Shown: positions 27,327-63,799 of the stretch, piece after piece
Position numbering within the stretch: position 1 is the first letter of the stretch
Layout of the letters: every line of letters starts with the position of its first letter
NCBI RefSeq assembly: GCF_001006305.1
Contig: NZ_LBHJ01000003.1
Span: 671,709 to 735,708, forward strand
Length of the DNA stretch: 64,000 nucleotides
Direction: 5' to 3'
From: Silvibacterium bohemicum
GTDB lineage: Bacteria > Acidobacteriota > Terriglobia > Terriglobales > Acidobacteriaceae
Made by a program: the position numbers and the translations under genes
Notes under the pieces: generated by a model
What the model saw: the letters and a program-made list of their open reading frames with translations, nothing else
What the model was told of the DNA's origin: nothing
Database searches by the model: none

Positions 27327-27400
27327 AGATAGGAGACCTCATTGTCCGGATATCTGTCGACGAGGGATGCTCTAAATATCTTGCTCATTTCTGCAATTCA
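27327..27400 (+). promoter_or_regulatory. Operator element 1 (extended form) in the DUF302/27507 gap
   Basis: Half-site TCTAAATATC at 27371, inner block TTGCTCATTTC, and second half-site TGCAATTC at 27392, spaced 21 bp. The upstream block AGATAGGAGACCTCAT begins exactly 44 bp before the first half-site. It points to the gene starting at 27507, 107 bp away, and lies 33 bp from the divergent DUF302 start. Confidence 0.7.
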
Positions 27401-27506
27401 ATGGGCGATGGCATGGGAACATCGATGCGTTTGAATTATGGTCGCGGTTGGTGAGCTCCGCTCCAAGCCGGCTTGCGCCCGACCTAAAATAAACGCGGAG
27501 GGGTTC

Positions 27507-28418
27507 ATGAAGAGACGGAAAGTTGCAGGGCTTGTCGATTTGATTGAAGTCAGCGATCCGAATGAGATTGCGGCCCTGGCTCGCGATCCGAATCTCGATC
27601 GCAGATTTGAGACACCGACATGCCCTGTCAACTGGCTTCTTCTGAAACGGTCCCTTAAGGTGCTTTCTTTCCGCGGTCACCGTTTCCCGACGATGATGCC
27701 GCGGGACGATGCACAACGGACATCCAACCAGCAAGACCTATGGAACCTGTTGGGTGAGAAAGTAGCCTCGATAAAGACTGGCTCCGACGAACTGGAACCT
27801 CTAGCGGACTGGGTTCGAGGCATTGGGCCGGATGTTCAACTGGGTATCCTCGTACAGCAGCTGCTGGGCCAATTGTTCTCCAGCAAGTTCATGGCAACCG
27901 AGGCAAGTTGGGATGCTGCGAAGGTCCTTGTAGCGGCTCCCCGGTTGAATAACTTACCTCTAATGATGTGGTGGTTCGTCAGCGGCAAAGTCAGACGCGC
28001 GAAGCGTCTTCTTGCCGGCATGGTGAATGAGGATCTTTCTGCCGTCAACGCCATCGGCATTGCCGTGCACAATGTCGTTAAGAGTCTTCGTCAAATGAGG
28101 GTTCTTTACGCGAACGTTCAGACGAGGTCGGGCTTGTCGGCTGAGGCGGCTGCGGAGCAATGTCTGTTTGCACCTGCCAGCGTTTACCGCCAGGCGACTG
28201 CGGCGGGGCAGCTTGGAGACTGCCCATACTCTCGGCATTCTTTGTTTGTGCTCTCGATCGGAGAGGCGGCACGACACGCCGAAGGGCGGTCTCTTGTCTT
28301 TATGGAGGATAGCTGGAGTCGATGCCCCGCTAATCTCTGGATTCCTGCAATGCTGCAAGGTGTTTGGAATCGGGCCAGTGTTTTCTCCCAGTTCCATGAT
28401 GAAAAGCTCTCTGGCTGA
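27507..28418 (+). CDS. Conserved hypothetical protein, function unknown
   Basis: Protein of 303 residues that I cannot place in a named family. The composition is ordinary for a cytoplasmic, mostly helical protein: no signal peptide, no clear transmembrane segment. Possible functional spots are the FRGHRFPTMMPRDDA segment near 55-70 and two Cys-Pro pairs (CPYSRHS, RCPANLW) in the last third. The start at 27507 has GGAGGGG upstream; the in-frame ATG at 27438 adds 23 unlikely residues. Operator element 1 lies about 107 bases before the start, the same distance as element 2 has to oxalate decarboxylase 1, which suggests shared control. Confidence 0.72.
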   Translation: MKRRKVAGLVDLIEVSDPNEIAALARDPNLDRRFETPTCPVNWLLLKRSLKVLSFRGHRFPTMMPRDDAQRTSNQQDLWNLLGEKVASIKTGSDELEPLADWVRGIGPDVQLGILVQQLLGQLFSSKFMATEASWDAAKVLVAAPRLNNLPLMMWWFVSGKVRRAKRLLAGMVNEDLSAVNAIGIAVHNVVKSLRQMRVLYANVQTRSGLSAEAAAEQCLFAPASVYRQATAAGQLGDCPYSRHSLFVLSIGEAARHAEGRSLVFMEDSWSRCPANLWIPAMLQGVWNRASVFSQFHDEKLSG

Positions 28419-28512
28419 CGCGAAACCGACTCACGATGCCGAAACTCTCGCGCGGCTGGTCTGCTGCGGGCATTAGAGGTGTGATCTTCACCGACAGCCG
28501 AGCCGAATGGCC

Positions 28513-29319
28513 TCAGCGGGCGAACTCGCGCCGGTAGCCCGTCGGTGTGGCCTTCAGAAGTCTTTGAAAGACCTTTGCGAGTTGTTGAGGACTTTGAAAG
28601 CCGCACGCCATTGCCACCTCGATGATTGTCCAATCGGTCGTTCGCAGCAATTCCTTTGCTCGCTCAACACGTGCCCGCACAACAAACTGGTGAGGAGGAT
28701 ATCCTGTAGCGCCTCGAAACGCTTCTGAGAAGTATGCGGCACTGAGTCCCGCCGTCTCTGCAAGCTCCGCTACTGTTAAATCTCGCTCGATATGAACATG
28801 GATCTGTTCTATGACCCTTCGTAACTGAGCAGTCGATAATGCTGTTGTGTAAGACCTGAGCGATCGCTGCAGGACACCTCGTGTCTGCATGAGCGTTGCC
28901 GCCAAAGCCCTTCCAATCCCGTCAAGAAAGATCCTGCCAGCAGGGAATCCACTTACCTGTTCGGCCTCCAGGGCCTCGACAAGAGCCGAGATGCGCTGGT
29001 CTCTGAGATTGGCCGTTCCCTGGATCTCGAGCTCGCTCGTCCCAGTAGAGTCCGCGACATCTCGGAATGCACTGTCCGGCAACTCAAGCATTAACATGTC
29101 CGAGTCGCTGATCCAATGAACCCACTCTTCCGTCCCTTTGCGAGCGAGGATTAGATCTCCAGGACCGTACTGATATCGAGTCATGGAGTCCGGCTTGAGT
29201 CCGTGGTCGAATGTCCCCGCCTTGATGACCTTGAAGAGACACTGCTTGCTGAGCGTCTGAGACATAACTCCAACAAGAGGCGTCGCAATTACTCGGTCAA
29301 GTCTCAGCACATCGTTCAT
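28513..29319 (-). CDS. AraC family transcriptional regulator
   Basis: Regulator of 268 residues. The C-terminal AraC/XylS double HTH is clear: first HTH LTVAELAETAGLSAAYFSEAF, and the second WTIIEVAMACGFQSPQQLAKVFQRLLKATPTGYRREF. The N-terminal domain of about 160 residues is probably a ligand-binding cupin-like fold (YGPGDLILARKG). It diverges from a cupin gene at 29439. It is the only AraC protein in the window and so the first candidate for binding the nine 21-bp-spaced direct repeats described here; AraC proteins bind such repeats with their two HTH units. This link is an inference. Confidence 0.92.
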   Translation of the reverse strand: MNDVLRLDRVIATPLVGVMSQTLSKQCLFKVIKAGTFDHGLKPDSMTRYQYGPGDLILARKGTEEWVHWISDSDMLMLELPDSAFRDVADSTGTSELEIQGTANLRDQRISALVEALEAEQVSGFPAGRIFLDGIGRALAATLMQTRGVLQRSLRSYTTALSTAQLRRVIEQIHVHIERDLTVAELAETAGLSAAYFSEAFRGATGYPPHQFVVRARVERAKELLRTTDWTIIEVAMACGFQSPQQLAKVFQRLLKATPTGYRREFAR

Positions 29320-29320
29320 A

Positions 29321-30035: not shown

Positions 30036-30092
30036 CAACGAATAGCCGTCTATGTTAGTTCCTGCAAATCTCTTGCTCAATACTGCAATATC
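30020..30092 (+). promoter_or_regulatory. Operator element 2 (extended form) before oxalate decarboxylase 1
   Basis: Half-sites TGCAAATCTC at 30063 and TGCAATATC at 30084, spaced 21 bp, with inner TTGCTCAATAC. The upstream block AGATGGAGACCTCAT starts 43 bp before the first half-site (one base shorter than in element 1). The start codon at 30200 lies 107 bp downstream. Confidence 0.72.
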
Positions 30093-30199
30093 GCGGACTA
30101 ACACTCAAGCTTCACGCAACGGACTTGTGATCACGGTCACCACTGATCTGCATCAGCGACGTTATGATTATGAAACCTCGCAAGGCTCAGGAGATCCAG

Positions 30200-31351
30200 A
30201 TGTCCGAGAAAGAAGTAAGGCAACCGATTCGCGGCGACAAGGGAGCAACGGACCCTGGTCCCCGTAATGTGCTGCTTGATGAGCAGAACCCCGATGTCCT
30301 CATCCCTCCGGCAACCGACAGCGGGTCCATTCCCAATCTCAAGTTCTCCTTTGCCATGGCGCACAATCGTCTTGAAGATGGCGGCTGGGCCAGAGAGGTT
30401 ACGGTGCGGGAACTGCCCGTTGCCACGTCGATGGCCGGTGTGGACATGCGTCTCGACTCCGGTGTCGTACGCGAGCTCCACTGGCACAAAGAGGCGGAAT
30501 GGGCCTATATCCTTCAGGGGAACGTCCGACTGACGGTAGTCGATCAGGATCGCAATGTCTGCATCGAGGATTTGAAACCTGGCGACATCTGGCTGGTTCC
30601 GGCTGGCGTACCGCACTCCATACAGGGACTTGAGGGCGGCACTGAGTTCCTGCTCGTATTCGATGACGGCAATTTTTCCGAGAACCAGACTCTGTTGATC
30701 ACCGAGTTCATGGCGCATCTGCCGCCTGAGGTTCTTGCTAAAAACTTCGGCGTGAGTGCAGAAAAATTCGCAGGCATTCCGAAGTCGGAGAAGTACATCT
30801 TCACCCTGCCTGTACCTCCGCCGCTGGACGTTGTCCGTAAGCAGCTGCCTGACAGTCCTCCCAAGTTTTCCTACGTGTACCACGCTTCGGAGCAGCCCTC
30901 TACAAGTTACTCCGGTGGGGCAATCAAGGTAATCGACTCCGAGAATTTTCCGGTGACGAACCTCTCGGCACTGGTGATGGAAATAGAGCCAGGCGGCATG
31001 CGTGAGATTCATTGGCATCCGGGTGCAGACGAGTGGCAGTACTACATGGAGGGCAGCGCCAGAATGACTGTCTTCGACGCTACATCAAAGGCGCGGACCT
31101 TCAACTACACGGCGGGAGATGTTGGCTTTGTGCCACGCACACTGGGGCACTACATCGAGAACACAGGCGATTCGATGCTTCGCATCATCAATGTGTTCAA
31201 TACTCCCGTGTACAAAGACATATCGCTGGCCAACTGGATGGCTCTAACACCGAAAGAACTTGTGCGCGGCCACCTCAATCTCGATGATGACGTGATCGAA
31301 GGGCTGCGGCGTGATCGTGACGCGGTCGTGCTAAGCAGGCCGTCTCGCTGA
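30200..31351 (+). CDS. oxdC: Oxalate decarboxylase, bicupin, cytoplasmic form
   Basis: Bicupin of 383 residues, expected to convert oxalate to formate and CO2 with Mn and oxygen. Cupin 1: ELHWHKEAEW and PAGVPHSI supply three His and one Glu. Cupin 2: EIHWHPGADEWQYY and GHYIENTG supply the second site. The lid loop reads FSENQT; the Glu in SEN-x-T is the general acid that separates decarboxylases from oxalate oxidases. No signal peptide. I choose the ATG at 30200 with AGGAGATCC just upstream rather than the one at 30164. Operator element 2 is 107 bp before the start. A Tat-exported paralogue is at 59882. Confidence 0.92.
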   Translation: MSEKEVRQPIRGDKGATDPGPRNVLLDEQNPDVLIPPATDSGSIPNLKFSFAMAHNRLEDGGWAREVTVRELPVATSMAGVDMRLDSGVVRELHWHKEAEWAYILQGNVRLTVVDQDRNVCIEDLKPGDIWLVPAGVPHSIQGLEGGTEFLLVFDDGNFSENQTLLITEFMAHLPPEVLAKNFGVSAEKFAGIPKSEKYIFTLPVPPPLDVVRKQLPDSPPKFSYVYHASEQPSTSYSGGAIKVIDSENFPVTNLSALVMEIEPGGMREIHWHPGADEWQYYMEGSARMTVFDATSKARTFNYTAGDVGFVPRTLGHYIENTGDSMLRIINVFNTPVYKDISLANWMALTPKELVRGHLNLDDDVIEGLRRDRDAVVLSRPSR

Positions 31352-31693: not shown

Positions 31694-32740
31694 CTAGTGG
31701 CCGTATCCTTCGGCATCCGTAGGGACCTTGCCTCGGAACAGCCAGTACACAATCCCAAAATAAAGAAGCGCAAGGCAGACCCCTATAGACCACCATGCCA
31801 GACCGACACGAAGAGTATGGGGTCCGGCGATGGCCCGCGCGACTGTAAGATCGCGGCCTCGTGTTCCTACGGCAGGAAGCAGTACAGGGAAGAGTCCGGT
31901 GGCGGCCCCGACGAGCATAGCAAGCAGGTAGCCGCAGGAGGCGAGGAAGGATGGGAGACGAGACTTGATGGCCATGGTGAGACGCATCGTGATCACGCAG
32001 GCGATGACAGCGAGCGGAACAAGGAATGCAATCGGGTGACCGCGATAGTTATCGAGTGAAGCGGGCCGAGCGAAAACTGTGGCGGGGATTCCGATGGCGG
32101 TAAGGGCAACGCTGGCGATCCAGATGCGGCGAGAGAAATAGAGTGCGCGACGCTCGAGATGGCCTTCGGTCTTGAGAGCCAGGTAGAGAGCTCCGTGCAG
32201 CGACAGGGCGGCCAGGGCCAAGATGCTGCCGAGGATCGTGTACCAGTCGAGGATGCCGGGATTTGGACCAGTGCGCCAGTTGGTCCAGAGCGGTAGGAAG
32301 AAGTAGTCGTCTGGACCAATTGGGACACCACGAACGACGTTGCCGAGAGCTGCGCCGAAGAAGACGATGAGCAGGATGCTCGAGAAGCTAAAGAGACCGT
32401 CAAAGAAGGTGCGCCAGAGAGGATCGTCGGAGTGGCCGCGGAGCTCTACGCTGATGCCGCGCAGGATAAGGAGCCAGAGGACCATCATCAGCGGCAGATA
32501 GAAGCCACTGAAGGCCGAGGCATAGAGAAGAGGGAAGGCGAAGAAGAGCGTGCCTCCCGCGGCGAGCAGCCATACTTCGTTGCCGTCCCACACGGGGCCG
32601 ATCGAACGAAGGGTCTGGACGCGCTCGGATTCGTTTCGGGCAACAAAGAGATAAATGGCGCCTACGCCGAGGTCAAAGCCATCCAGGACGATATAGGCGG
32701 CGAGCATCAGCGCGACGATCCAGAACCAAAGCGTTCCCAT
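31694..32740 (-). CDS. cydB: Cytochrome bd ubiquinol oxidase subunit II
   Basis: Subunit of 348 residues with the CydB pattern: LWFWIVALMLAAYIVLDGFD at the N-terminus, VWDGNEVWLLAAGGTLFFAFP, and about eight further membrane segments. Together with CydA it reduces oxygen to water using quinol, without proton pumping. It starts 12 bases after cydA, with GGAGAGG as ribosome site, so the two form an operon. No CydX and no cydCD assembly genes are in the window. Confidence 0.95.
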   Translation of the reverse strand: MGTLWFWIVALMLAAYIVLDGFDLGVGAIYLFVARNESERVQTLRSIGPVWDGNEVWLLAAGGTLFFAFPLLYASAFSGFYLPLMMVLWLLILRGISVELRGHSDDPLWRTFFDGLFSFSSILLIVFFGAALGNVVRGVPIGPDDYFFLPLWTNWRTGPNPGILDWYTILGSILALAALSLHGALYLALKTEGHLERRALYFSRRIWIASVALTAIGIPATVFARPASLDNYRGHPIAFLVPLAVIACVITMRLTMAIKSRLPSFLASCGYLLAMLVGAATGLFPVLLPAVGTRGRDLTVARAIAGPHTLRVGLAWWSIGVCLALLYFGIVYWLFRGKVPTDAEGYGH

Positions 32741-32752
32741 GTGAGCCTCTCC

Positions 32753-34117
32753 TTAGACAGTGATGGACTGAGTATGCAAGGCATGCTTGGGAGCCGATGG
32801 TCCGGCCTGGATGTGGTTGTAGACGATGATGATCCATAGGAGTGAAAGGACGGTATACATACCAAGGAAGCCAAGCAGGGAGAAGAGGCTGTTGCTGGCC
32901 GAAACATGCATCGAAGAACCTTCCGCGGTGCGGATGAGTCCGTAGACAAGCCAGGGTTGGCGGCCGATTTCCGCGGTCATCCAACCGGCGGCTGTGGCAA
33001 TGTATGGCAAAGGCCAACTTAAGAGAATGGGCCAGAGAATCCAGCGGGCGGAATATAGCTTGCCGCGCCAAAGCAAGAACGCGGCAACTGCCATGAGCGC
33101 GCCAAACCAGGTTCCGAGTCCAGCCATGATGTGGTAGCTGTAGAACAGGAGCGGGAGCGTGGAGGGCCATTGATCCTTGGGGAAGTGGTCGAGGCCTTCG
33201 ACTTCAGCGGCGGTCGTCCCATAGATAAGGAAGCTCAGGACTTTGTTGACTATCAGAGGATTGTCGATCGTTTGCGTTTTGTAGTTGGGTTGGCCCAGAA
33301 GGATCATCCCCGCACCCTTCTCCGAATGGAAGAGGCCCTCCATGCCTGCTATAGCGGTGGGCTGATGCTTCGCCGTGTATTTGCCATGCAGGTCGCCTGT
33401 CGGGAAGACCTGGAGAACACAGGAGATGATCCCCGCAATGACACCAAGTTTGAGGAAGATGCGTCCATAGGGGCCATCCCGCCGCTGGAGCAGGTAGAGA
33501 GCCCCGACTGCAGCCATAACGAAGGAGGCTGTAACGACCGCAGCACACATGTTGTGCGAGTACTCGATCCAAGCCCATGGGTTGAAGATGAGTTCACGAA
33601 AACTGCCAACTTCGTAAACACCATTCGGCAAAAGTTTGTAACCCACCGGGTGTTGCATCCACGCGTTGGTAACGATGATGAAGAAGCCGGAGATCCAGGA
33701 ACCGACGAAGACCAGTACGGCAGAAAGCCAGTGCATGCGTCGGGATAGGCGTTTCTCACCGAAGAGAAAGAGGCCGAGAAAGGCCGACTCAAGAAAGAAA
33801 GAGAAGATGCCTTCCATGGCGAGGGGCATGCCGATCACGGCGCCGGTCCGGCGCGAGAACTCTGACCAGTTGGTTCCGAACTGGAACTCCATCGGGATAC
33901 CGGTGACAACTCCGAGAAGGAAGTTGATTGCGAAGATCTTCGCCCAGAAACGGGAGGAGATGTCGTAGTTAACCGAATCGTCGTGATCTGCCGTGCGCAA
34001 AGCCAGTGTCTTGAGGACGACGATAAGCAGAGACAATCCCATCGTGAGCTGCGGAAATAGATAGTGATACGTGATAGTGAACGCGAAGTGAAGACGGTGA
34101 AGCGTGAGGGCGTCCAT
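32753..34117 (-). CDS. cydA: Cytochrome bd ubiquinol oxidase subunit I
   Basis: Heme-bearing subunit of 454 residues. The heme ligand His near residue 19-20 is in FAFTITYHYLFPQLTMG, and the GRQPW motif of the quinol-binding side is in WMTAEIGRQPWLVYG. The protein is short compared with E. coli CydA (522), which suggests the short-Q-loop type, including cyanide-insensitive oxidases. The upstream gap of about 600 bases to fdhD contains operator element 3, which points toward cydA from about 405 bases away. Ribosome site GAAGGAG. Confidence 0.95.
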   Translation of the reverse strand: MDALTLHRLHFAFTITYHYLFPQLTMGLSLLIVVLKTLALRTADHDDSVNYDISSRFWAKIFAINFLLGVVTGIPMEFQFGTNWSEFSRRTGAVIGMPLAMEGIFSFFLESAFLGLFLFGEKRLSRRMHWLSAVLVFVGSWISGFFIIVTNAWMQHPVGYKLLPNGVYEVGSFRELIFNPWAWIEYSHNMCAAVVTASFVMAAVGALYLLQRRDGPYGRIFLKLGVIAGIISCVLQVFPTGDLHGKYTAKHQPTAIAGMEGLFHSEKGAGMILLGQPNYKTQTIDNPLIVNKVLSFLIYGTTAAEVEGLDHFPKDQWPSTLPLLFYSYHIMAGLGTWFGALMAVAAFLLWRGKLYSARWILWPILLSWPLPYIATAAGWMTAEIGRQPWLVYGLIRTAEGSSMHVSASNSLFSLLGFLGMYTVLSLLWIIIVYNHIQAGPSAPKHALHTQSITV

Positions 34118-34713
34118 GACACTACTCCTTCTAGCCTGCGCAAAGGCCAGCCCTGCAGTTAGTCAATCGCTCCAACCGAGGTGTAAGCGAAGGGCCTATC
34201 CAATAGGCACGCATGACATTCGGCAAGCGGTTGTGGCGCATTGGAATAAACGAACAATCTTTTAGGGGACAAACCCGAAAAGCGAACTCCGTTCGTATCG
34301 GAATCCCTCACCCAGCCGCAGGGGCAGCGGATTGATCACGTGGTCCAAGGAGGTCCCATATTTTTCCAATTCGCCTTGAGAAACCGAGATGTCACGGCTG
34401 CTCCGCCTCGCCAAAGGCGTTCCGTATTATGCACCCCTCAAACGGCTGGCATGCACTGAATTTAATCTGACCAGCTATCTATAGATACGACACTTTGGCT
34501 TGTGTCGACTGAGCCGCAGATGACTTTCGCAGAAACGGGCAAGAGATTTGGAGTATTGCGTATATACGACGATCCGATGGATGGCGTCCTCTATCTTTAT
34601 GTCTCATTAGCTCCGAGTATTCTTATAGATCATGGAACGTCGGCTTATGTCGAGCAGTGGGTTGCCGCAAGTTCAGAAACGTTACATCACTGAATGCGGA
34701 GTGCAAGTTGGCA
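34118..34713. other. Long gap between divergent cydA and fdhD
   Basis: About 600 bases that contain the promoters of cydAB and fdhD and operator element 3. A 63-codon frame over 34502-34693 looks like a gene but is explained by the element. I see no RNA gene. Confidence 0.5.
34523..34596 (-). promoter_or_regulatory. Operator element 3 (extended form) between cydA and fdhD
   Basis: Read on the minus strand: half-site TCCAAATCTC, inner TTGCCCGTTTC, second half-site TGCGAAAGT, spaced 21 bp. The upstream block AGATAGAGGACGCCATCC starts exactly 44 bp before the first half-site. It points to cydA (405 bp) and ends about 117 bp from the fdhD start on the other side. Confidence 0.68.
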
Positions 34714-35658
34714 ATGAATGAAGAACTGATGACATTGAGTAATCGATCGACGGAGCAAGGGGCAAGGTCTACCTCTCAAACTGTGGTGAACCGGTTTATT
34801 GGGGATCAAGTCCATCCGGTAACAGACACTCTGGCGGTCGAAGAACCGCTTGAATTGCAGCTTGCTTACGGGCCCTCCAGCTCACGTCGAGTGAAGTCGA
34901 TCTCTGTCACGATGCGGACTCCCGGCCACGACTTCGAGCTGGCCGCGGGATTTCTCCTGACCGAGGGTATCGTCGGCGATTCTGCCGACATAAGCGAGAT
35001 CAGCTATGTCGTAGGCTCTGCGAATGAAGTCCGCCTCACTCCGCCGGCTCCGAATGCGATAGTGTTGCCTTACCAACCGGAGCGCAATGTCGTTCGCGTC
35101 GAGCTTGCCGCGGATGTAGCGGTCAGCATGGCGAACCTCGAACGCAACTTCTACACAACCTCCAGTTGCGGTATTTGCGGAAAAGCATCCCTGTTGGCTT
35201 TGCGTACGGTCTGCCCGCCGCGCGCAGCGAATAGTCTCAAGGTTGCAGCCAATCTGCTCTATTCGCTCCCTGACAGACTTAGAGCGGGCCAGGATGTATT
35301 CGAAAGAACGGGCGGTCTCCATGCTTCGGGGCTGTTTGATTCTGACGGAGACCTTCACGCCATTCGGGAGGATGTTGGGCGTCATAACGCGGTGGACAAG
35401 CTCATTGGAGCGGAGTTCCTTGCCGACCGGACCCCACTTCGCGACCGCATACTTTTGCTATCTGGCAGGGCCAGTTTCGAACTGCTGCAAAAAGCACTCA
35501 TGGGCGGCATTCCAATGGTTGTCTCGGTTGGAGCACCTTCGAGTCTCGCGGTTCAGGTAGCGAAGGAGTTTGACATCACTCTGATCGGCTTCCTGAGAGG
35601 CGATCATTTCAACGTCTATAACGGAACAGAACGCATCTCTGGGGCCATCGCAAAATAG
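34714..35658 (+). CDS. fdhD: Formate dehydrogenase accessory sulfurtransferase FdhD
   Basis: Protein of 314 residues that transfers sulfur from the desulfurase IscS to the molybdenum cofactor of formate dehydrogenase. The catalytic CxxC is in TTSSCGICGKASL; other family marks are TPGHDFELAAGFLLTEGI, REDVGRHNAVDKLIG and SGRASFELLQKAL. It is separated by about 9 kb from the formate dehydrogenase operon at 43521-48984, yet both have operator elements upstream. I choose the ATG at 34714; the frame is open to 34657 but those 19 residues are not conserved in type. Confidence 0.93.
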   Translation: MNEELMTLSNRSTEQGARSTSQTVVNRFIGDQVHPVTDTLAVEEPLELQLAYGPSSSRRVKSISVTMRTPGHDFELAAGFLLTEGIVGDSADISEISYVVGSANEVRLTPPAPNAIVLPYQPERNVVRVELAADVAVSMANLERNFYTTSSCGICGKASLLALRTVCPPRAANSLKVAANLLYSLPDRLRAGQDVFERTGGLHASGLFDSDGDLHAIREDVGRHNAVDKLIGAEFLADRTPLRDRILLLSGRASFELLQKALMGGIPMVVSVGAPSSLAVQVAKEFDITLIGFLRGDHFNVYNGTERISGAIAK

Positions 35659-36145: not shown

Positions 36146-37120
36146 CTACGGTATGGTGACCACAATGCGTGGTCTTCCTGGAGCATTCCAAGCCACTTCA
36201 ATCTCCTGGAGCGGCAGAACCCTCGTCACAATCTGCAGTCCGGCAGGTACGACTGCATCGAATACGTGCCTGATGGCGTCGAGTAGCTTCATCATTGGAA
36301 CACTCTTTACGCCGCTGCCCATTAGCTGAATGGCGGAAGACCGGAGAGCAGACCCGGTGAGATCAATCTTATCCTCGCCACTTGATGCTCCTACGTGGAC
36401 GAAACGGACGGGCGTCGCATCCTCCACCGACTTCGCGATGGCGGTGATTATCACTGTGGCGCTCTCACCCCACAGGTAGTCGATCACCACATCGATTCCG
36501 CCACCGAACTCTTTTTTGAGCGCCTGTTCATATTCATCCGCCCCCTGCGGGTTGGACGTGTCCAGCGAGAACGGGATCACCACGTCCGCACCCACAGACT
36601 GCAAAGCTTTAAGGTCGGCTTCACTGCGGCCCGTTGCAATTACTTTGCTCGCTCCGAGGTACTTGGCGAGTTGTACTGCCAGAGTCCCCGCCGATCCTGT
36701 CGCGCCGTTGATCAGTACTGTTTCTCCCGACCTCAGCTGTGCTCGTTCCACTAACGCCGCCCAGGCTGACATTCCGGGATTCGCTATAGCGGCCGCTGTG
36801 ACATCATCGAGTCCATCCGGTACCGGAACGCACAGTTCCTTACGAACGAGGGATTTCTCGGCCAGCGCTCCATAAGGAGCTTCCGGGAGGACGAAGTACA
36901 CGCGACGTCCGTCTGTAGTGCGGCCTACTCCATCGGCACCAGCTACGGACGGGAAGATGCCTTGCGCACTATAGTGGGAACCTGAGGAGCGCGACTTGCT
37001 GAATGGGCTGAGTGCCGATGCGCTGACCGTGACGACCTCCAGACGCTCCGTACCGGTGGGCTCAGGGAAATGACTGAATACTGGTGTCTCGCCGGCTGCC
37101 GCGATCACTGCTGCTTTCAT
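36146..37120 (-). CDS. Zinc-independent quinone oxidoreductase/alcohol dehydrogenase-like (MDR)
   Basis: Medium-chain dehydrogenase/reductase of 324 residues, resembling NADPH:quinone reductase (Qor). The cofactor motif is in VLINGATGSAGTLAVQLAKY, and the catalytic zinc ligands of true alcohol dehydrogenases are absent. Substrate unknown, likely a quinone or enone. I choose the ATG at 37120 with GGAGATTGTT before it; a frame to 37174 adds 18 residues. Operator element 4 is 121 bp upstream in the right orientation. Confidence 0.87.
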   Translation of the reverse strand: MKAAVIAAAGETPVFSHFPEPTGTERLEVVTVSASALSPFSKSRSSGSHYSAQGIFPSVAGADGVGRTTDGRRVYFVLPEAPYGALAEKSLVRKELCVPVPDGLDDVTAAAIANPGMSAWAALVERAQLRSGETVLINGATGSAGTLAVQLAKYLGASKVIATGRSEADLKALQSVGADVVIPFSLDTSNPQGADEYEQALKKEFGGGIDVVIDYLWGESATVIITAIAKSVEDATPVRFVHVGASSGEDKIDLTGSALRSSAIQLMGSGVKSVPMMKLLDAIRHVFDAVVPAGLQIVTRVLPLQEIEVAWNAPGRPRIVVTIP

Positions 37121-45172: not shown

Positions 45173-45195
45173 GGAACCAGACTCCTTTATCGCGA

Positions 45196-50567: not shown

Positions 50568-50817
50568 TCACCGCGGTGTTGCAGCAGCCCAGGCAATTTG
50601 GGCAGATGCAGCATCGCGGTAGGCTTGATCGAGGCCGTCCTTGTTGGCCTGAACGATCTCTGCCAGGACTTCGCCGGAGTAAGGATCGATGTCGGAAAGC
50701 TTCGATCCATGCTTACCGGGGCGCCATGCTCCATCAATGAATTGGCCGTCGAAGCCCCCCTTATTTAAGCTTCGCTGCGGACTGTGCAGGTATCGGTGAG
50801 ACTTGTGCGACTGCCAT
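50568..50817 (-). pseudogene. Aldehyde dehydrogenase N-terminal remnant
   Basis: An ATG at 50817 with GGAGAACAA upstream opens MAVAQVSPIPAQSAAKL and then hits a stop. One frame over, the text continues GGFDGQFIDGAWRPGKHGSK and LSDIDPYSGEVLAEI, then DLDQAYRDAA-like residues and ends at ATPR. This is the first 75 or so residues of an aldehyde dehydrogenase; about 400 residues with the catalytic Cys and Glu are missing. So it has both a frameshift near 50765 and a large 3' deletion, which implies past expression from a good start site. Confidence 0.75.
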
Positions 50818-50874
50818 TTGTTCTCCTTTGATCTGCGGGGTCCGTGTTTACACTCCAGTGTTGAACGCAAAAGT

Positions 50875-52791: not shown

Positions 52792-54333
52792 TCACGTTCT
52801 GCTGGCACCGACCTCTCTTCTGCGCTCAAATTGAAGCTCCGCGAGCAGGTTCTCCCTATCTCGGCCGATGGTAGCGATGGCTCTGAGCACGCCATTTGCG
52901 CTGAATCGGATCTCGCAGTTTCGACCCGATAGAGAGCCATCGATCACGATCTCGTCATAAGGTTCTGCGTGACCAACGTAGTTGACCGTGACGTCGTAAT
53001 GCTGGCTCCAAAAGAACGGGGCGGCATCGAACGGCACCTTCATTCCCAGGATGTTCTTAGCGGCCGTCTGTCCCTGTCGTTGTGCCACAGCGAAGTGCTC
53101 TACCCGGATCGATTGGCCGGAGTGCGGATCGGGCCACCGGGCGATATCGCCGGCAGCATAGATGTTCGGGTCATTGGTGGCAAGATAGGGATCAACGATA
53201 ACACCACGATCCACCTGAAGGCCGGCCTGTGTAGCCAGTTCCAGCGATGGACGCACTCCAATTCCTGCCACGATCAGATCGACGTCATCGATCTGGGAGT
53301 TATCACTAAGCGTGATGACCCGGCCGTCTGCCCGGCTCAGAAGGCGACCGAGATGAAAATGCACTCCGTGAGACTCGTGGAGCTCACGTATGAATCGGCC
53401 AACCTCCGTCCCTAAGACCTTCGCCAAAGGTTCAGAATCGGGAGCAACTACATGAACATCGACTCCACGGGTACGAAGAGAGGCTGCTGTCTCTAGGCCG
53501 ATAAAACTTGCACCGACCACGACTACCCGTTTTGCGGTTGCTGTAGCAGCTGCCAGTCTCCTCGCGTCGTGAAATGACCGCAGGTAATAGATGTTGGCAG
53601 GGTCTACTCCTTCAATTGTGAGCGGGACCGGGCGCGCTCCGGTGGCGATCAGCAGCGCGTCGTATGGGTGGAACTTTCCATTCTCCAGCTGAAGCCGTTT
53701 CTGTTCCCGGTCGATCGAGGTGACACGGGTCTGCAGCACCAGGTCGATCTTGTGCGTTGCGTAATAGTCTGGCACGCGCAGGGGCATCCATTCCGGAGGT
53801 GTTGCACCGGCGAGGTAATCCTTCGAAAGGTTAGGCCGGTCGTACGGAGCGTCATCATCGGCGCTGAGCATCGTGAGAGGGCCGCCATATCCTTCGCGGC
53901 GTAACATCTCCGCAGCTGCCAGCCCTGCGGCTCCTCCGCCTATGATGACGACCGACTTCGGTACTTGTGGAAGGGTTCGCGATAGCACCGGAGCTTTGAG
54001 AACCTCGCGGACGAAGACCAGATCACCAACTACCTCTGTTCTCCAGCATTTGAGAGTGTCTAGGGCAGGAGCTGCGATAGCCTCGCCAGTCTTGAGATCA
54101 AAGCAAGCGTGATGTAACGGACACCGGATGGTGTCATTGACAACAATCCCATTCTTCAAAGGGGAGTGATAGTGCGAGCAAAGGCCGTCCACCGCAAAGA
54201 GATTCGAGCCATTCTTGACTACCACAATCTCCTGGCCGCCCATGTTCCCAGCGACGGGCTGACCTTCCAGGATATTTTCGAGGGGCACTCCGCGACCGAA
54301 GTCAGTGGTGAATTCTGCAGGCATAGTTGTCAT
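52792..54333 (-). CDS. Rieske 2Fe-2S / FAD-dependent ferredoxin reductase fusion
   Basis: Protein of 513 residues of the AIFM3-like type. The Rieske domain (about 5-105) holds Cys-x-His in GLCSHYHSPL and Cys-x2-His in RCPLHHACFD. From about 125 comes the reductase: FAD motif SVVIIGGGAAGLAAAEML, PYDRPNLSKDYLAG, NAD motif VVVVGASFIGLETAASL and YAAGDIARWPDP. Such fusions pass electrons between NAD(P)H, FAD and the Rieske cluster; the partner is unknown. Operator element 7 lies within 25-98 bp upstream, but points the other way. Confidence 0.92.
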   Translation of the reverse strand: MTTMPAEFTTDFGRGVPLENILEGQPVAGNMGGQEIVVVKNGSNLFAVDGLCSHYHSPLKNGIVVNDTIRCPLHHACFDLKTGEAIAAPALDTLKCWRTEVVGDLVFVREVLKAPVLSRTLPQVPKSVVIIGGGAAGLAAAEMLRREGYGGPLTMLSADDDAPYDRPNLSKDYLAGATPPEWMPLRVPDYYATHKIDLVLQTRVTSIDREQKRLQLENGKFHPYDALLIATGARPVPLTIEGVDPANIYYLRSFHDARRLAAATATAKRVVVVGASFIGLETAASLRTRGVDVHVVAPDSEPLAKVLGTEVGRFIRELHESHGVHFHLGRLLSRADGRVITLSDNSQIDDVDLIVAGIGVRPSLELATQAGLQVDRGVIVDPYLATNDPNIYAAGDIARWPDPHSGQSIRVEHFAVAQRQGQTAAKNILGMKVPFDAAPFFWSQHYDVTVNYVGHAEPYDEIVIDGSLSGRNCEIRFSANGVLRAIATIGRDRENLLAELQFERRREVGASRT

Positions 54334-54356: not shown

Positions 54357-54430
54357 CAATAGGAGATCGCGGAGGGTGTCATTTCGTCCATGCTCCATAC
54401 TGCAAATATCTTGCTCGTTTCTACAAAATA
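54357..54430 (+). promoter_or_regulatory. Operator element 7 (extended form)
   Basis: Half-site TGCAAATATC at 54401, inner TTGCTCGTTTC, second half-site TACAAAATATC at 54422, spaced 21 bp. The upstream block CAATAGGAGATC begins 44 bp before. It is 24 bases from the divergent Rieske gene and about 437 bases from the RibD-like gene. Confidence 0.68.
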
Positions 54431-54732
54431 TCTCCCGCCATTGGTTTAGCGTGGCAATATTCGACTCACCTTCATGCCATCTGTAACTTCGCTGAAATAC
54501 AGTGACATCATGGCGCCGTTAGTTTCCCGCCGGTCATGGCTTTGAGAGGTTGAGTATGCTCAGAAGACGCATCGGTATCCAGTAGGCTCTGGAACTACCC
54601 CGATTGCACTCAAATTGAGTTCCCTCGATGGCCACGTGAACAATCTCACACGCTCCTGACGTCACACTCTTCAATTGCAGATAATCTAGTTCCCGCCATC
54701 CGTTCTAGCCGCACCGCGCATTTGCGCAATTC

Positions 54733-54763
54733 TGCAAATCTCGTGCTGCTTTCTGCAAATGTT
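54733..54763 (+). promoter_or_regulatory. Operator element 8 (core only) before the RibD-like gene
   Basis: Half-sites TGCAAATCTC at 54733 and TGCAAATGTTC at 54754: an almost perfect direct repeat spaced 21 bp with inner GTGCTGCTTTC. The gene at 54867 starts 104 bp downstream. GCCATCC is present upstream but 5 bases out of register. Confidence 0.7.
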
Positions 54764-54866: not shown

Positions 54867-55583
54867 ATGAGGCCGCACGTAATCAGTCACATACTTACTA
54901 CGGTCGATGGACGAATCGATGAGCCTGCTCTCGAATTTGTGACCGCTTGTCGAGAGTATGAGGCAATCCATAGACATTTTGGAGGCAATGCATGGCTGGG
55001 GAGCGAAGCCATCATGCGGAAGTATTCCGCTGCTTCAGGGCCCTTCGTTGGTGACACTGAGCGCGGTGTTCCGGCTGGACCTCAATCCGTGTTTGTTGCC
55101 AGGCAGACGGAATCGTATGCGATTTCGGTTGATCCAAATGGAGTCCGAAACTGGATCACGAATGAACTCGCTGGCGATCACCTCATTTGCCTGCTGTCTG
55201 AGCAGGTTTCTCAGGACTATCTGGAGCTACTTCACCGACTCGGAATATCCTATGTGGTCTCCGGGCACAAAGACGTTGATATCGAGGCAGCCCTAAGTGA
55301 GCTATCTACTCATTTCGGCATCCACACCCTCCTTCTTAAAGGGGACAGCCAGGTCAACCAATCTGCCATGCAGGCTGGTTGGGTGGATGAAGTGAGTCTG
55401 CTGATTGTGCCAGCCATCGCGTCAAGCAATATTGCTCCCTCGTCCCGCGATGTGCTGCACGTTCAAGGCAACGCAACGATGCTCAAGCTGAAGTTCGTGG
55501 AAAGACGCAATCACGACATTCTCTGGGTCCGTTATGACGTCGTTCGACGTGGCGGTGACGATCGTTCGGCAATTCCAACCTAA
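54867..55583 (+). CDS. RibD C-terminal/dihydrofolate reductase-like protein
   Basis: Protein of 238 residues with the RibD C-terminal (DHFR-like) fold: VISHILTTVDGRIDEPALEF, NAWLGSEAIMRKYS, ISYVVSGHKDVD and the end LLLKGDSQVNQSAMQAGWVDEVSLLIVPAI (shown here only in parts in the sequence as two adjoining strands). In riboflavin synthesis this domain reduces the pyrimidine; stand-alone copies are usually uncharacterised NADPH reductases. It is the first gene of a plus-strand cluster with aldo/keto reductases. Ribosome site GGAGAG. Operator element 8 is 104 bp upstream. Confidence 0.85.
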   Translation: MRPHVISHILTTVDGRIDEPALEFVTACREYEAIHRHFGGNAWLGSEAIMRKYSAASGPFVGDTERGVPAGPQSVFVARQTESYAISVDPNGVRNWITNELAGDHLICLLSEQVSQDYLELLHRLGISYVVSGHKDVDIEAALSELSTHFGIHTLLLKGDSQVNQSAMQAGWVDEVSLLIVPAIASSNIAPSSRDVLHVQGNATMLKLKFVERRNHDILWVRYDVVRRGGDDRSAIPT

Positions 55584-55600
55584 TCAAACCTGGAGGATAG

Positions 55601-57642
<2,042 letters not shown>

Positions 57643-57670
57643 ACGCGGAGGCATCCATTGGCAACTCTTT

Positions 57671-57690
57671 GACGGCCTGGCTGGGCCGTC
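57671..57690. terminator. Short hairpin after aldo/keto reductase 2
   Basis: GACGGCC and GGCCGTC around a 6-base loop, 28 bases after the stop and 64 bases before the Dps start. It may be a weak terminator or attenuator between the two genes. Confidence 0.5.
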
Positions 57691-57753
57691 TCGATACCAA
57701 AACCAATCCTCACCGCAATACGCACTATGGTGAGCGTCACAAACGAGGATCCC

Positions 57754-58272
57754 ATGACTACTCAAAAGCAATCTCCGTTGCAGCATCGAGCTGGCAGCAC
57801 GACTGACCTGTCGCCAGAAGCGACCAAAGACATCAGCGCTGCCCTCGAAGCTCTCCTTGCAGACGTTTTCGTGTTGTATGTGAAGACGAAGAACTTCCAC
57901 TGGCACATGAGTGGCCCGCATTTTCGGGACTATCACCTGCTGCTTGATGATCACGGCGATCAGATTTTCGCCATGACAGACGATATCGCCGAACGAGCGC
58001 GGAAAGTGGGCGGAACGACGATTCGCTCCATCGGTCACATCGCCCGCGTGCGGCGCATCGCAGACAATGACGCAACATACGTGGAACCTCTGGATATGTT
58101 GGCAGAGTTGCTTGAAGACAATCGCCAACTTCTCGCCGAGATGCGCCAGATGCACAATACCTGCGACGAGTACCACGATGTGGCGACGGCAAGCCTGCTT
58201 GAGAACTGGATCGATCAGACCGAACGCAGAATCTGGTTCCTGTACGAGACATCTCGTAAGGGCTCCAACTAG
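57754..58272 (+). CDS. dps: Dps family ferritin-like DNA-protection protein
   Basis: Protein of 172 residues forming 12-mer shells that bind DNA and store iron. The ferroxidase site spans dimers: His and Asp residues in KTKNFHWHMSGPHFRDYH and DDHGDQIFAMTDDIAERARK are conserved. It detoxifies peroxide through iron oxidation. The ATG at 57754 with GAGGATCC upstream is chosen; an earlier ATG at 57727 would add 9 residues. A strong terminator with A and T tracts follows. Confidence 0.93.
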   Translation: MTTQKQSPLQHRAGSTTDLSPEATKDISAALEALLADVFVLYVKTKNFHWHMSGPHFRDYHLLLDDHGDQIFAMTDDIAERARKVGGTTIRSIGHIARVRRIADNDATYVEPLDMLAELLEDNRQLLAEMRQMHNTCDEYHDVATASLLENWIDQTERRIWFLYETSRKGSN

Positions 58273-58285
58273 ATCGTCAGTTGCG

Positions 58286-58321
58286 AAAACATTCCGCGCC
58301 GGGGATGGCGCGGAATGTTTT
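58286..58321. terminator. Rho-independent terminator after dps
   Basis: Arms 58286-58300 (AAAACATTCCGCGCC) and 58307-58321 around GGGGAT, ending in TTTT and followed by CTATAAG. The A-tract and T-tract make it a good bidirectional terminator. Confidence 0.78.
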
Positions 58322-58421
58322 CTATAAGGACTGGGGACACGCAGATGCTCTTCTTCATTCGTTTGGTGCAATGTGACTTTTCCGGGCGAGAGAGGGCAAG
58401 GAGCAGGGTGGAGAGGATGAC

Positions 58422-59846
58422 GTGAAGGACGAGCAATTCTCGCAGAATCAAGACATCGAAGAGTACGACCTGGTCATACTCGGCAGCGGCGAAGGAGGCA
58501 AGTATCTCTCCTGGACCTTAGCCAAGGAAGGCAAGAAAGTTGCGGTCGTCGAGCGCAAATACATTGGAGGCTCCTGTCCGAACATTGCTTGTCTCCCAAG
58601 CAAGAATGTGATTCACAGCGCGAAGGTCGCGTCCCTGGTGAGCCGTGGAGCAGAATTCGGCATATGTATCCATGGATACTCTATCGACGGTTCCGCCGTC
58701 CGTGATCGCAAGAGGAAGATGGTTGATGGGCTTATCGATCTTCACCTCAAGAACTACGCCGGAAGCGGTGCTGAGTTGATTATGGGGACCGGACGATTTG
58801 TAGCTCAGAAGACCGTTGAAGTGACAATGAACGAAGGTGGAAGGCGCAGACTCCGTGGAAAGGATGTCGTGATCGGAACGGGTACCCATGCCACCTTGGG
58901 CGATATACCCGGGATGTCTCATGTTCAGCCCTGGACGCACGTCGAAGCTCTCGATTCGGGAGTCATCCCGGAAAGGCTTCTTGTTCTTGGGGGAGGCTAC
59001 GTGGGGCTTGAGCTTGCTCAGGCTGCCCTCCGATTCGGGAGCAAGGTGACCATCATCGAACATGCGCCTCGTCTCCTGCCAAGAGAAGACGAGGATATGT
59101 CGCAGGCAATTGAGTCTCTCCTCCGAGACGAAGGGGCAGAAGTTCTCCTGGGCTGCGAGGTGATGTCAGTCTCCGGAATTAACGGAGACAGCGTCGGTGT
59201 CTTTATCGGTTGGGATGGACGGAAAGAAACGATCGTCGGAACTCACTTGCTGGTAGCTCTGGGAAGAACACCAAATACCGCCGAGCTCAATCTTGACGCG
59301 GCGGGCGTCGAGCTCACTCCCAGTGGATATGTCAAGGTGAATGAGCACCTCCAAACGACTGCACCAGGAGTCTGGGCGATTGGGGAGGTGGCAGGAAGTC
59401 CACAGTTCACACACATATCCTTCGACGATTTCAGGGTGATCCGCGACAATCTTGCCGGTAAGTCCCGCACAACGACGGGGCGACAGGTTCCCTATGCTCT
59501 GTTTACCGATCCGGAACTCGCCCGTATCGGCCTGAACGAGCAGGAGGCCAAGGTCGCCGGAGTCAGTTACCGTCTCTTTAAGCTGCCGATGATAGCGGAT
59601 CTGCGCGCGCGCACGCTGTCCGAGACTCGCGGATCCATGAAGGCGCTGGTCTCAGATGATGATCAGATTCTGGGTTTCACAGTTTTTGGGGTGGGGGCCG
59701 GCGAAATTATGGGAGCCGTCCAGATGGCAATGCTCGGGAAGCTCCCCTACACCGCGGTTCGCGACGCCATTGTCACCCATCCCACGTTGCTCGAGGGGCT
59801 AGTCGGCCTATTTTCGAGTAAACCAACCGAAGTCAGCAATTCTTAA
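58422..59846 (+). CDS. FAD-dependent pyridine nucleotide-disulfide oxidoreductase, paralogue 2
   Basis: Flavoprotein of 474 residues, close to the gene at 8235-9626. FAD motif ILGSGEGGKYLSWTLAKEG, redox disulfide in GGSCPNIACLPSKN, NAD(P) motif VLGGGYVGLELAQ, WAIGEVAGSPQF and the C-terminal THPTLLEG. The start is a GTG with GGAGAGG upstream. It is followed 35 bases later by oxalate decarboxylase 2, so the two are probably co-transcribed. Substrate unknown; the CPNIAC string marks the same unusual active-site clade as paralogue 1. Confidence 0.9.
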   Translation: MKDEQFSQNQDIEEYDLVILGSGEGGKYLSWTLAKEGKKVAVVERKYIGGSCPNIACLPSKNVIHSAKVASLVSRGAEFGICIHGYSIDGSAVRDRKRKMVDGLIDLHLKNYAGSGAELIMGTGRFVAQKTVEVTMNEGGRRRLRGKDVVIGTGTHATLGDIPGMSHVQPWTHVEALDSGVIPERLLVLGGGYVGLELAQAALRFGSKVTIIEHAPRLLPREDEDMSQAIESLLRDEGAEVLLGCEVMSVSGINGDSVGVFIGWDGRKETIVGTHLLVALGRTPNTAELNLDAAGVELTPSGYVKVNEHLQTTAPGVWAIGEVAGSPQFTHISFDDFRVIRDNLAGKSRTTTGRQVPYALFTDPELARIGLNEQEAKVAGVSYRLFKLPMIADLRARTLSETRGSMKALVSDDDQILGFTVFGVGAGEIMGAVQMAMLGKLPYTAVRDAIVTHPTLLEGLVGLFSSKPTEVSNS

Positions 59847-61252: not shown

Positions 61253-62794
61253 TCACTTGAAGAGTATCTTCGCCATCATCCCTTTGTCTTCATGGCTCAA
61301 TAAGTGGCAATGGAACAGTGACACGCCACGAATGATAGGGTCCGTGAAGTCCATGACGAGGTCGATGCTGTTTCCACCAGGGACATTGACTGTATCCAGC
61401 CATTCCGGTTGAGCCTCGGGTTTCCCGTTTTGTGCATAGACGAGAAAATGCACCTGATGGATATGGAACGGATGCACCTCTCGGGTATCATTCACGACCC
61501 GCCAATGGAAGAAAGAACCGACAGTGGCAGTTGTCATAGGCGGATCTTCAGGGCCGTACTTCTTGCCATTGATGTAAAAGCCATGCTTGTCTTCTGTGAA
61601 CTTGACGGTATAGTCAGGCGCACGGCTCTCAACATCGCTCAGCGTTGCATGGGGGATGGGCTTGTAGACTGGCGCGAGGCGACCCACCCGTTCCGATGAA
61701 ACTGTGGGGCGTGATGGGAGGCTCACCAGGTCGGCGATCACCATGGCCGGGTTCGGATCTCCATCGGGTCCGGTATCGAAGCAGCGGCTCCGAAGAGATA
61801 CTTTCGCACCACCGACTGGCCCGGCAACTATCGCTTCAACGCGTCCTGCGGGGGGTACAAGGACGTGGTCCACGAGTTCCGTCTGTCGATGTGGATCGTG
61901 AAACGTCAGTGGCATTCCATCGCGCGCGATAATCTCAAGTCTTTCACCATCGACTTCAAGGTCTGCATACAGGTCCGGAGATGCATTGACGATGCGCCAA
62001 AACTGGCGACCGCCTGAAGCAATCGGAATGCGAGGACGAAGCGATCCGTTAACCGTAAACACTCGCTGTGGCACGCCGGACGCTGCGCCACAACCTGCTG
62101 ATGAGGCACCAACCGCTTTCCTTATTGCAGGCGCGTTCGGGTCATGTTCCCCGGCTACACGATCCCGCAAGATCAAGATGCGTTGCCGCAGGTGTCGAAC
62201 TTCGGGTGCGTATCGCTGGATTCCATCCACAACGATCGCGCCGGACATGCCATCAAGGCTCTGTTGATAGCTCTCTCCGTGAGGATGGGTGTGGTACCAG
62301 TACAAACCTGGTGGTTGATCCAATGGAACGGTGACGGCGTAGTGCAAGGTCGTTCCTGGGTTTGCCATCATCGAGATCACATCGTCCTGCGGCGAATCCG
62401 GCGAAACATGGAGGCCATGAAAGTGAAGATTGCTCATGTTCATGCATGGCCCGTCGATGCAGCGTTCTCCCGAATGAGCCGACATTGAGTTGATGTAACT
62501 GAGATGAAGGACTGTCCCCGGGAGAACATGAATTACCGGCGGCGTCTCACGTCCCTGAAACTGGAAAGCAGACTTCCCGCTGTTCGGATCCGTGATGGCG
62601 TGCAGAACCACCGGAGAGGATGTCTCAGGCGGGTCCGAGATAATGGTCGATGTATCTGACCGCGGATGATGAGTAGTATCCTGCGCTTCCACCCATTGAG
62701 GTGATGCTACAGAAATGAAGAGTGCGAAGAGAACCCTAACCGCAAGAGCAGACTCGTCGGAAACAATTAGTCGGGGGAATAGTCTATTGCCCAT
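61253..62794 (-). CDS. Exported multicopper oxidase
   Basis: Laccase-type protein of 513 residues. An N-terminal hydrophobic segment (VLFALFISVASPQWVEA) looks like a Sec signal. All four copper boxes are present: HFHGLH, WYHTHPHGES, HPFHIHQVHF and HCHLLSHEDKGMM; the last carries the type 1 Met ligand. It oxidises a phenolic or metal substrate such as Cu(I) or Mn(II) and reduces oxygen to water; the sequence does not show which. The gene stands alone, with no copper regulator next to it. Confidence 0.91.
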   Translation of the reverse strand: MGNRLFPRLIVSDESALAVRVLFALFISVASPQWVEAQDTTHHPRSDTSTIISDPPETSSPVVLHAITDPNSGKSAFQFQGRETPPVIHVLPGTVLHLSYINSMSAHSGERCIDGPCMNMSNLHFHGLHVSPDSPQDDVISMMANPGTTLHYAVTVPLDQPPGLYWYHTHPHGESYQQSLDGMSGAIVVDGIQRYAPEVRHLRQRILILRDRVAGEHDPNAPAIRKAVGASSAGCGAASGVPQRVFTVNGSLRPRIPIASGGRQFWRIVNASPDLYADLEVDGERLEIIARDGMPLTFHDPHRQTELVDHVLVPPAGRVEAIVAGPVGGAKVSLRSRCFDTGPDGDPNPAMVIADLVSLPSRPTVSSERVGRLAPVYKPIPHATLSDVESRAPDYTVKFTEDKHGFYINGKKYGPEDPPMTTATVGSFFHWRVVNDTREVHPFHIHQVHFLVYAQNGKPEAQPEWLDTVNVPGGNSIDLVMDFTDPIIRGVSLFHCHLLSHEDKGMMAKILFK

Positions 62795-62944
62795 GATTGA
62801 GTTTGTGTCCTCAAAGTCAGTCTGAGCGGGAGCAGGCGGAGCCTGTCCGGGTTAGTTGTCGCGGGTTTAGGGGGCAGACTTCTCCCGATGAACTTTTATG
62901 CTTTTGTCCGGAGCTGCAGAGCTAACGCTCGAATTCATCTGTGC

Positions 62945-63370
62945 TCAGTGAGCTTCGTCAAGACGTTCGATCATGACATCGGTGGATTTAATGAGCGCTC
63001 CCACATGATCGCCTTTCTTCAAGCCTAGCTCCCGAACTGCGCTGGCCGTTATGATCGCCGTGATGTGTGAGTCGACTGCGGCGATTACGACCTCGGCAAG
63101 AAATCCCTCGACACGGATGCTGACAACTTTTCCCGGAATCTGATTCCGTCCACTTACCTTGCGATATCGTTCGCGTGATTCAGCAATTGGCTTTTTGCGG
63201 TCTTTCTCCAGAAAGGGTTTGAGTGCCGACTCCCTGATTCGGTGATGGCCTCCAGGGGTCGTTGTCGTTGCCAGCTTTCCATCCAGAATCCATTGCTTGA
63301 TCGCCGGGTAACTGATGCCGAGGAGTCGGGCAGCTTCGCGCGGAGTAAAGACTGAATCGAGTTTAGCCAT
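62945..63370 (-). CDS. HTH-TOBE molybdate-responsive type regulator
   Basis: Protein of 141 residues. Residues 5-55 are a MerR/excisionase-type HTH (FTPREAARLLGISYPAIKQW, then TTTPGGHHRIRESAL). Residues about 72-140 are a TOBE/Mop domain (LSGRNQIPG-like SGRNQIPGKVV, then VDSHITAIITASAVRELGLK, then GDHVGALIKSTDVMI) that binds molybdate or tungstate. This pairing is known from molybdenum-linked regulators, and it fits a region with formate dehydrogenase and fdhD. Targets are not seen directly; operator element 9 lies about 204 bases upstream. Confidence 0.82.
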   Translation of the reverse strand: MAKLDSVFTPREAARLLGISYPAIKQWILDGKLATTTTPGGHHRIRESALKPFLEKDRKKPIAESRERYRKVSGRNQIPGKVVSIRVEGFLAEVVIAAVDSHITAIITASAVRELGLKKGDHVGALIKSTDVMIERLDEAH

Positions 63371-63799
63371 GAAATATATTTAGCCCTTTCGTCAGAGAAT
63401 GTGTCTTCAGCTTCAGGTGCCATGCAACGCGATGCTTAGAGAATGGTGCGCATCCGCGCGTCGAATAGATGACTTTGTCAGTTCCGCGCGCTTCCATACT
63501 TTCGACGAGAACTTATCGTCTCTATGTTATTCGCAACCCTCATCGACAGCCACTAGCCAACCATGTCTAGTCCTCTAATTCTCTTGCCCGTTTCTGCATT
63601 TCAGGATGCGGGTTCGTCAGGTAACGATTTTAAACATATAAAGTCGTTATAGAGCTACTTCCTCAAGGCACATGAATCGCGGCGACTACGTGACAGCTTG
63701 TGCCCTCTGACCGTTGGAACTATGTTCCGTCAAATGCCTCTTCATTTGGCCCTTGATTGATACGTCGAGGGCGAAAGAGTACCGCCTTCAAGGAGCGCG
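63371..63799. other. Gap with operator element 9
   Basis: About 430 bases between divergent genes. It contains element 9; otherwise nothing is recognised. Confidence 0.5.
63574..63603 (+). promoter_or_regulatory. Operator element 9 (core)
   Basis: Half-site TCTAATTCTC at 63574, inner TTGCCCGTTTC, second half-site TGCATTTCAGG at 63595, spaced 21 bp. The core is almost identical to element 4. The upstream block is only weakly similar (CCTCAT two bases out of register). The TonB-type gene starts 197 bp downstream. Confidence 0.65.

Follow-up and report, generated by a model that had tools for sequence, protein, structure and literature searches.

Predicted operators of YqhC-type AraC_N regulators form a regional cluster in the genome of Silvibacterium bohemicum

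A 64,000-nucleotide stretch of the Silvibacterium bohemicum genome (contig NZ_LBHJ01000003.1, here C12, positions 671,709 to 735,708; hereafter the window) carries nine copies of a direct-repeat element that a preliminary description, made from the letters alone, had read as the operator of a multi-site regulon under an AraC/XylS-type regulator. Our analysis supports this general reading and narrows it: the nine sites are very probably operators of YqhC-type regulators, recognizable by their AraC_N domain (PF06719). Judged from sequence comparison, a YqhC-type switch seems to have expanded here, giving a regional stress regulon of at least 14 sites and four paralogous regulators. Five-digit positions below refer to the window and six-digit positions to C12, unless another genome is named.

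Each operator consists of two direct 13-bp units (TGCYCnTTTCTGC) with a 21-bp period; the layout of the sites in this genome is TGCnCnATnCTGC, 8 bases, TGCYCGTTTCTGC, then AAA, with the consensus TGCYCGTTTCTGCAAA. All nine sites were present where they had been described and aligned without gaps over 38 bp, so the 21-bp spacing claimed for them is exact. Their half-sites had been placed near TGCAAAT; the direct repeat stands, but the repeated unit is really 13 bp long and the TGCAAAT half-sites are therefore fragments of it. Leave-one-out scores with a 38-column matrix ranged from 28.6 to 45.6 bits, far above chance; four first-order Markov copies of the 243-kb region around the window yielded a single match of at least 9 bits (10.8). 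The nine operators and their flanking genes are as follows.

27361 to 27398, plus strand: operator, 112 bp upstream of the 27507 gene start; a divergent DUF302 gene (predicted start 27294) is 66 bp away
30053 to 30090, plus strand: operator, with the oxdC start 77 bp further on
34525 to 34562, minus strand: operator flanked by cydAB (start 34117, 411 bp) and a divergent fdhD (start 34657 or 34714)
37243 to 37280, minus strand: operator, 126 bp ahead of a zinc-type quinone reductase gene whose start is predicted at 37120
42613 to 42650, minus strand: operator with no gene start downstream in its direction; on the other side, a truncated YceI-type open reading frame (ORF; 42951-43178) is the closest gene prediction
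49123 to 49160, minus strand: operator, with the protoglobin-formate dehydrogenase genes 142 bp away
54391 to 54428, plus strand: operator, first of a tandem pair, with the predicted start of a divergent Rieske/FAD reductase gene at 66 bp
54723 to 54760, plus strand: operator, second of the tandem pair, with a RibD-like gene 110 bp further on
63564 to 63601, plus strand: operator with a ModE-like gene on one side (start 63370, at 193 bp) and a TonB receptor gene on the other (start 63800, at 202 bp)

Eight of the nine lie outside predicted genes, as had been said of them all, but the site described at 34552 overlaps a low-scoring call of a 57-aa ORF. The five gene starts placed at 104-137 bp fit only loosely, the distances from operator end to predicted start codon being 112, 77, 126, 142, and 110 bp. 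The ModE-like protein beside the last operator combines a helix-turn-helix (HTH) with TOBE/Mop. The YceI-type ORF (plus strand, 75 aa) matches positions 17-88 of the 150-position YceI domain and looks truncated; operator 42613-42650 might be what is left of its control region.

The period was examined in sites scoring above 20. Unit-to-unit identity in the 14 sites of this genome was 7.1 of 13 positions at spacing 21, compared with 2.2-4.1 at spacings 13-20, and spacing 21 likewise gave the maximum among 26 acidobacterial sites and among 56 proteobacterial ones. In the 12 strongest sites of this genome, the conserved columns occupy positions -3 to +36 around the operator, and two others lie further upstream. 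Some sites share a longer stretch of ~66-70 bp at 61-71% identity, an upstream GGAGAC-like block included. This likeness, together with the clustering of the copies, would be expected if the sites were copies of a small mobile or dispersed repeat with no regulatory role. Such an origin is highly improbable and was rejected, given that conservation concentrates on the operator columns, that the 21-bp direct repeat recurs at AraC_N genes in other genomes, and that the copy at the Rieske gene is kept in place in another genus (see below). The GGAGAC-like block (window 27332-27337 and its equivalents) occurs upstream of several operators of this genome, and a CGTC(C/T)ATG-like block abuts the start of several; neither was seen by eye at the E. 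coli site. These blocks are possible further contacts.

To scan whole genomes we used a model built from the nine window sites (R1) and one built from 14 sites of this genome (R2); the five of these that lie beyond the window had initially been detected by R1 together with the window matrix. Searched with R1, the 6.46-Mb genome gave 18 matches at E ≤ 10, and 17 lie at C12:699,035-860,068. All 14 matches of R2 at E ≤ 0.05 fell in the same interval; these are its training sites, since R2 was built from them. The cluster spans within 160 kb on one contig, and the original count of nine was incomplete, as there are 14 sites genome-wide and weaker ones besides. Within the 243-kb region, of which gene calls cover ~85%, 22 matrix matches reached at least 9 bits and 18 were outside predicted genes by a loose test, one of these (858193) overlapping a predicted gene start by ~22 bp. 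Of the four in-gene matches, two are weak (15.9 and 11.3 bits); the others coincide with gene calls that are themselves doubtful, namely the 57-aa ORF at 34520 and, at 739114, an N-terminal extension. Chance frequency, and occurrence inside genes as often as between them, had been named in advance as grounds for rejection; the sites are not at chance level and stand mostly outside genes. A core-pattern scan of viral contigs gave 10 matches.

Comparison with other bacteria connected the element to YqhC. The nine-site matrix scored 26.7 bits at the E. coli yqhC-yqhD intergenic region and no higher than 8.6 elsewhere in ~106 kb of MG1655. Among the best 80 of 588 confirmed AraC_N loci, mostly proteobacterial and many of them close relatives of each other, 37 had their best matrix match on the strand of the AraC_N match and no more than 450 bp upstream of it, compared with an estimated ~2% by chance, and in 8 further loci the second-best match lay upstream. 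De novo refinement of the upstream regions reached 32.7 bits for 80 proteobacterial and 44.0 bits for 30 acidobacterial loci, shuffles giving 9.7-12.4. A model from 22 acidobacterial sites (R3) found 101 matches, training sites included, in 82 of 349 class genomes (one match in 68, two in 9, three in 5), and for 81 of the 101 a PF06719 domain, among those listed, followed 140-321 bp downstream on the same strand. The domain itself occurs in at least 117 of 399 class genomes, this one included. R3 had no match in the S. bohemicum genome because the operators there have a different consensus. In eight further acidobacterial loci with YqhC-like proteins, own-matrix matches of 11.4-28.0 bits were located upstream in six (L190-L195), and L196 and L197 had none over 3. 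The enterobacterial loci inspected showed an inverted third half at the same offset in 15 of 17, a count with no chance baseline. As the matrix picks out E. coli yqhC-yqhD and a 21-bp repeat stands upstream of AraC_N genes in two phyla, the window sites are best described as operators of the YqhC type.

The genome encodes four PF06719 proteins, all inside the site cluster, at C12:739,572-756,700, ~4-21 kb to the right of the window. All four score above the curated cut-off and join an N-terminal AraC_N domain to a C-terminal AraC HTH pair. They share 42-66% identity among themselves and 32-43% with YqhC over 271-289 residues, and the HTH helices are near-identical to those of YqhC. A strong site (739114) lies to the left of the 739572 gene, and weaker sites (746357 and 756953) precede two of the others; operators adjoining regulator genes suggest autoregulation. 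In the tree, calculated without the proteins of a relative from another genus (G684, below), the four paralogues formed one clade (SH-aLRT 99 and 100) and therefore probably arose by duplication. A first tree had grouped them with Proteobacteria, and branches moved once acidobacterial YqhC-like rows were added; because branches moved and were long, only the clade of four was used, not the donor or direction.

The preliminary description had proposed another regulator, encoded within the window:

28513 to 29319, minus strand: AraC-family protein, HTH only, no AraC_N domain

Its gene is positioned between two sites and an AraC HTH is present. Nevertheless, it lacks AraC_N, its recognition helices differ, and the matching operator precedes AraC_N genes in two phyla; moreover, the genome has 27 AraC-type HTH (HTH_18) matches, so proximity alone is a weak argument. 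That the operators belong to this protein is very unlikely, and it was rejected on domain and helix evidence. The four AraC_N proteins of the 739572 region are far better candidates.

The genes next to the operators, as presumed or possible targets, are listed here.

27507 to 28418, plus strand: presumed target, a 303-aa protein that matched nothing in Pfam, NCBIfam, or PDB at the chosen thresholds
30164 to 31351, plus strand: presumed target, bicupin of the oxalate decarboxylase family (oxdC)
31694 to 34117, minus strand: possible target, cytochrome bd subunits I and II (cydAB)
34657 to 35658, plus strand: possible target, FdhD
36146 to 37174, minus strand: presumed target, a zinc-binding dehydrogenase that most resembles PIG3-type quinone reductases but stays below the NCBIfam cut-off
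43521 to 48984, minus strand: presumed target run of protoglobin, formate dehydrogenase alpha, DUF1641, and transaldolase
52792 to 54333, minus strand: presumed target, Rieske ferredoxin/FAD reductase, divergent from the tandem operators
54867 to 59846, plus strand: presumed target run, possibly on one transcript, of RibD-like, two aldo/keto reductase, ferritin-like, and pyridine nucleotide-disulphide reductase genes

Other operators flank genes for a WtpA/ModA-like binding protein, DUF417, and DUF4331. Besides the two aldo/keto reductase genes behind operator 54723, a third follows the 739572 regulator gene. From this content we infer a response to reactive-carbonyl, electrophile, or redox stress, which would take in oxalate decarboxylase, formate dehydrogenase, protoglobin, reductases, ferritin, and perhaps cytochrome bd.

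Several results weigh against the YqhC-type reading. Operators vary in orientation and in distance to their targets, no promoter box at a constant distance from them was found by eye, and the regulator gene at 744195 has no site directly before it. At 35 of the 80 AraC_N loci neither the best nor the second-best match was upstream; a column-permuted matrix gave, per locus, a 95th percentile of 6.5 and a maximum of 21.3, and the real matrix exceeded 20 in 13 of the 80. Twenty of the 101 R3 matches were not upstream of a listed AraC_N gene. De novo refinement in coding regions gave 41.5 and 42.7 bits, as high as the signal, a control that is uninformative because those genes are homologous. Conservation in relatives, on which the preliminary description had also laid weight, is patchy: the system is present in one genome of another genus, but eight same-genus genomes had no R1 or R2 match at E ≤ 0.01. 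Finally, four formate dehydrogenase loci of the genus that were inspected had neither protoglobin nor operator (the top own-type match, at 10.6, did not lie upstream of the gene), so the link between operator and formate dehydrogenase is lineage-specific.

The variable distance and orientation bear also on the idea that the conserved box belongs to promoters read by an alternative sigma factor, such as the sigma-70-like factor (extracytoplasmic function type by our reading) encoded in the cluster beside one site (C12:747126-747815). Some sites do lie 77-142 bp before genes. Besides that variation, the internal 21-bp direct repeat and the presence of relatives of the element before AraC_N genes speak against it; we regard this origin as extremely improbable.

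In 40 relatives, R1 gave one weak match besides those in the S. bohemicum genome (G017, E = 0.003). The R2 scans of class and family genomes used stricter filters, by which weak matches are lost. Among 399 class genomes, none other had more than two matches at E ≤ 0.05; 19 others had matches, about the number expected by chance, and those in G367 and G396 sit just upstream of AraC_N genes. The expansion is unusual, as among 388 family genomes (this one included) only one other, G684, had more than one match at E ≤ 0.01, with five. G684 belongs to a different genus and has two AraC_N genes, both in its site cluster with operators beside them. The product of one is 58.5% identical to the 739572 protein; that of the other, a gene missed by the gene caller and resting on protein comparison and domain search, is 58.5% identical to the 744195 and 56.6% to the 745318 protein. 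Within 80 kb of G684, eight matrix matches exceeded 11 bits and six were outside predicted genes by the loose test, the others being G684 positions 625940 (within a gene) and 575479 (within a doubtful 71-aa ORF call). Operator 54391 is kept in place there upstream of the Rieske gene and is, by eye, the most conserved block of that intergenic region; for 54723, by contrast, the second G684 match of the tandem pair gave no alignment. Site 843134 is followed by a multicopper oxidase gene; its 66% relative in G684 is close to an operator, though not immediately behind it.

Window genes compared with G684 showed identities of 92% (isochorismatase), 83% (ferritin), 74% (pyridine nucleotide reductase), 74% (protoglobin), and 68% (Rieske reductase). 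The formate dehydrogenase gene is present in eight of nine genus genomes, this one included, at 60-66% identity in the others. The five window genes resemble G684 more closely than formate dehydrogenase resembles its counterparts within the genus. This may point to a transfer of the cluster between genera, bearing in mind that rates of gene evolution differ. We tentatively picture a transferable island, a scenario to which we give somewhat less than even credence: an AraC_N gene pair, its own operator variant, and stress genes would have moved between genera, the regulators would then have duplicated, and resident genes (formate dehydrogenase, perhaps cytochrome bd and oxalate decarboxylase) would have been wired into the electrophile-redox response through gained operators.

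In the mechanism proposed for the YqhC-type operators, a dimer would place one subunit on each 13-bp unit, the two HTH motifs of the subunit contacting that unit. The N-terminal domain would sense a reactive carbonyl or related electrophile or redox stress, upon which the flanking genes would be activated. The four regulators, probably duplicates and possibly autoregulated through the operators next to their genes, could thus join reductases, ferritin, oxalate and formate oxidation, and perhaps cytochrome bd in one response.

Further features were recorded near the cluster. A tmRNA gene (window 23989-24343, minus strand; Rfam RF00023, 157.6 bits) lies ~3 kb to the left of the first operator. 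A 24-bp inverted repeat at window 26236-26285 (96% complementary, 2-bp loop), shortly past the gene end at 26140, is perhaps a terminator. The 100-aa ORF at window 50568-50870 (minus strand) weakly matches the start of an aldehyde dehydrogenase (Pfam, below cut-off) and is a possible gene remnant. To the right of the window, inside the site cluster, a NikR-like regulator gene is convergent with a NicO nickel transporter gene (C12:749199-750687; L011:14200-15688).

A candidate operator is now available for AraC_N regulators, a widespread family with few studied members in the literature consulted, and the YqhC site can be described as a 21-bp direct repeat conserved in two phyla. The cluster also offers a case for how regulons expand and spread, from one known target in E. 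coli to an apparent regional regulon with four paralogues. The preliminary description knew of no account of this regulon. In the literature searched (most subscription papers and RegPrecise lay outside the search), we likewise recognized nothing that describes this acidobacterial operator or an AraC_N regulon so expanded, but the operator type has a precedent, being that of E. coli YqhC.

E. coli YqhC is reported to activate yqhD-dkgA upon glyoxal and furfural (PMC5297802), with one binding site by genomic SELEX (PMC8249747) and a limited number by ChIP-exo (PMC8464067), and the promoter has been described with a SoxS-like sequence and a 24-bp palindrome (PMC6115493). The S. bohemicum system shares with it the regulator domain architecture, the HTH recognition helices, the two direct 13-bp units at 21 bp, a site adjoining the regulator gene, and aldo/keto reductase genes nearby; it differs in having at least 14 operators and four paralogues, whereas a single target has been reported for YqhC in E. 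coli. The AraC_N operators of other acidobacteria (R3) are also 21-bp direct repeats just upstream of an AraC_N gene, but their letters differ (TGCCTATTCCT compared with TGCYCGTTTCTGCAAA), and they number one to three per genome compared with at least 14. The repeat period of XylS/Pm and of AraC I1-I2 is also 21 bp. XylS is described as a dimer on two direct repeats with two HTH motifs per subunit (PMC5481539). Regulators, boxes, and ligands differ from those considered here, and the likeness to XylS/Pm and AraC I1-I2 is one of architecture: two direct repeats for an AraC/XylS dimer, each subunit with its two HTH motifs.

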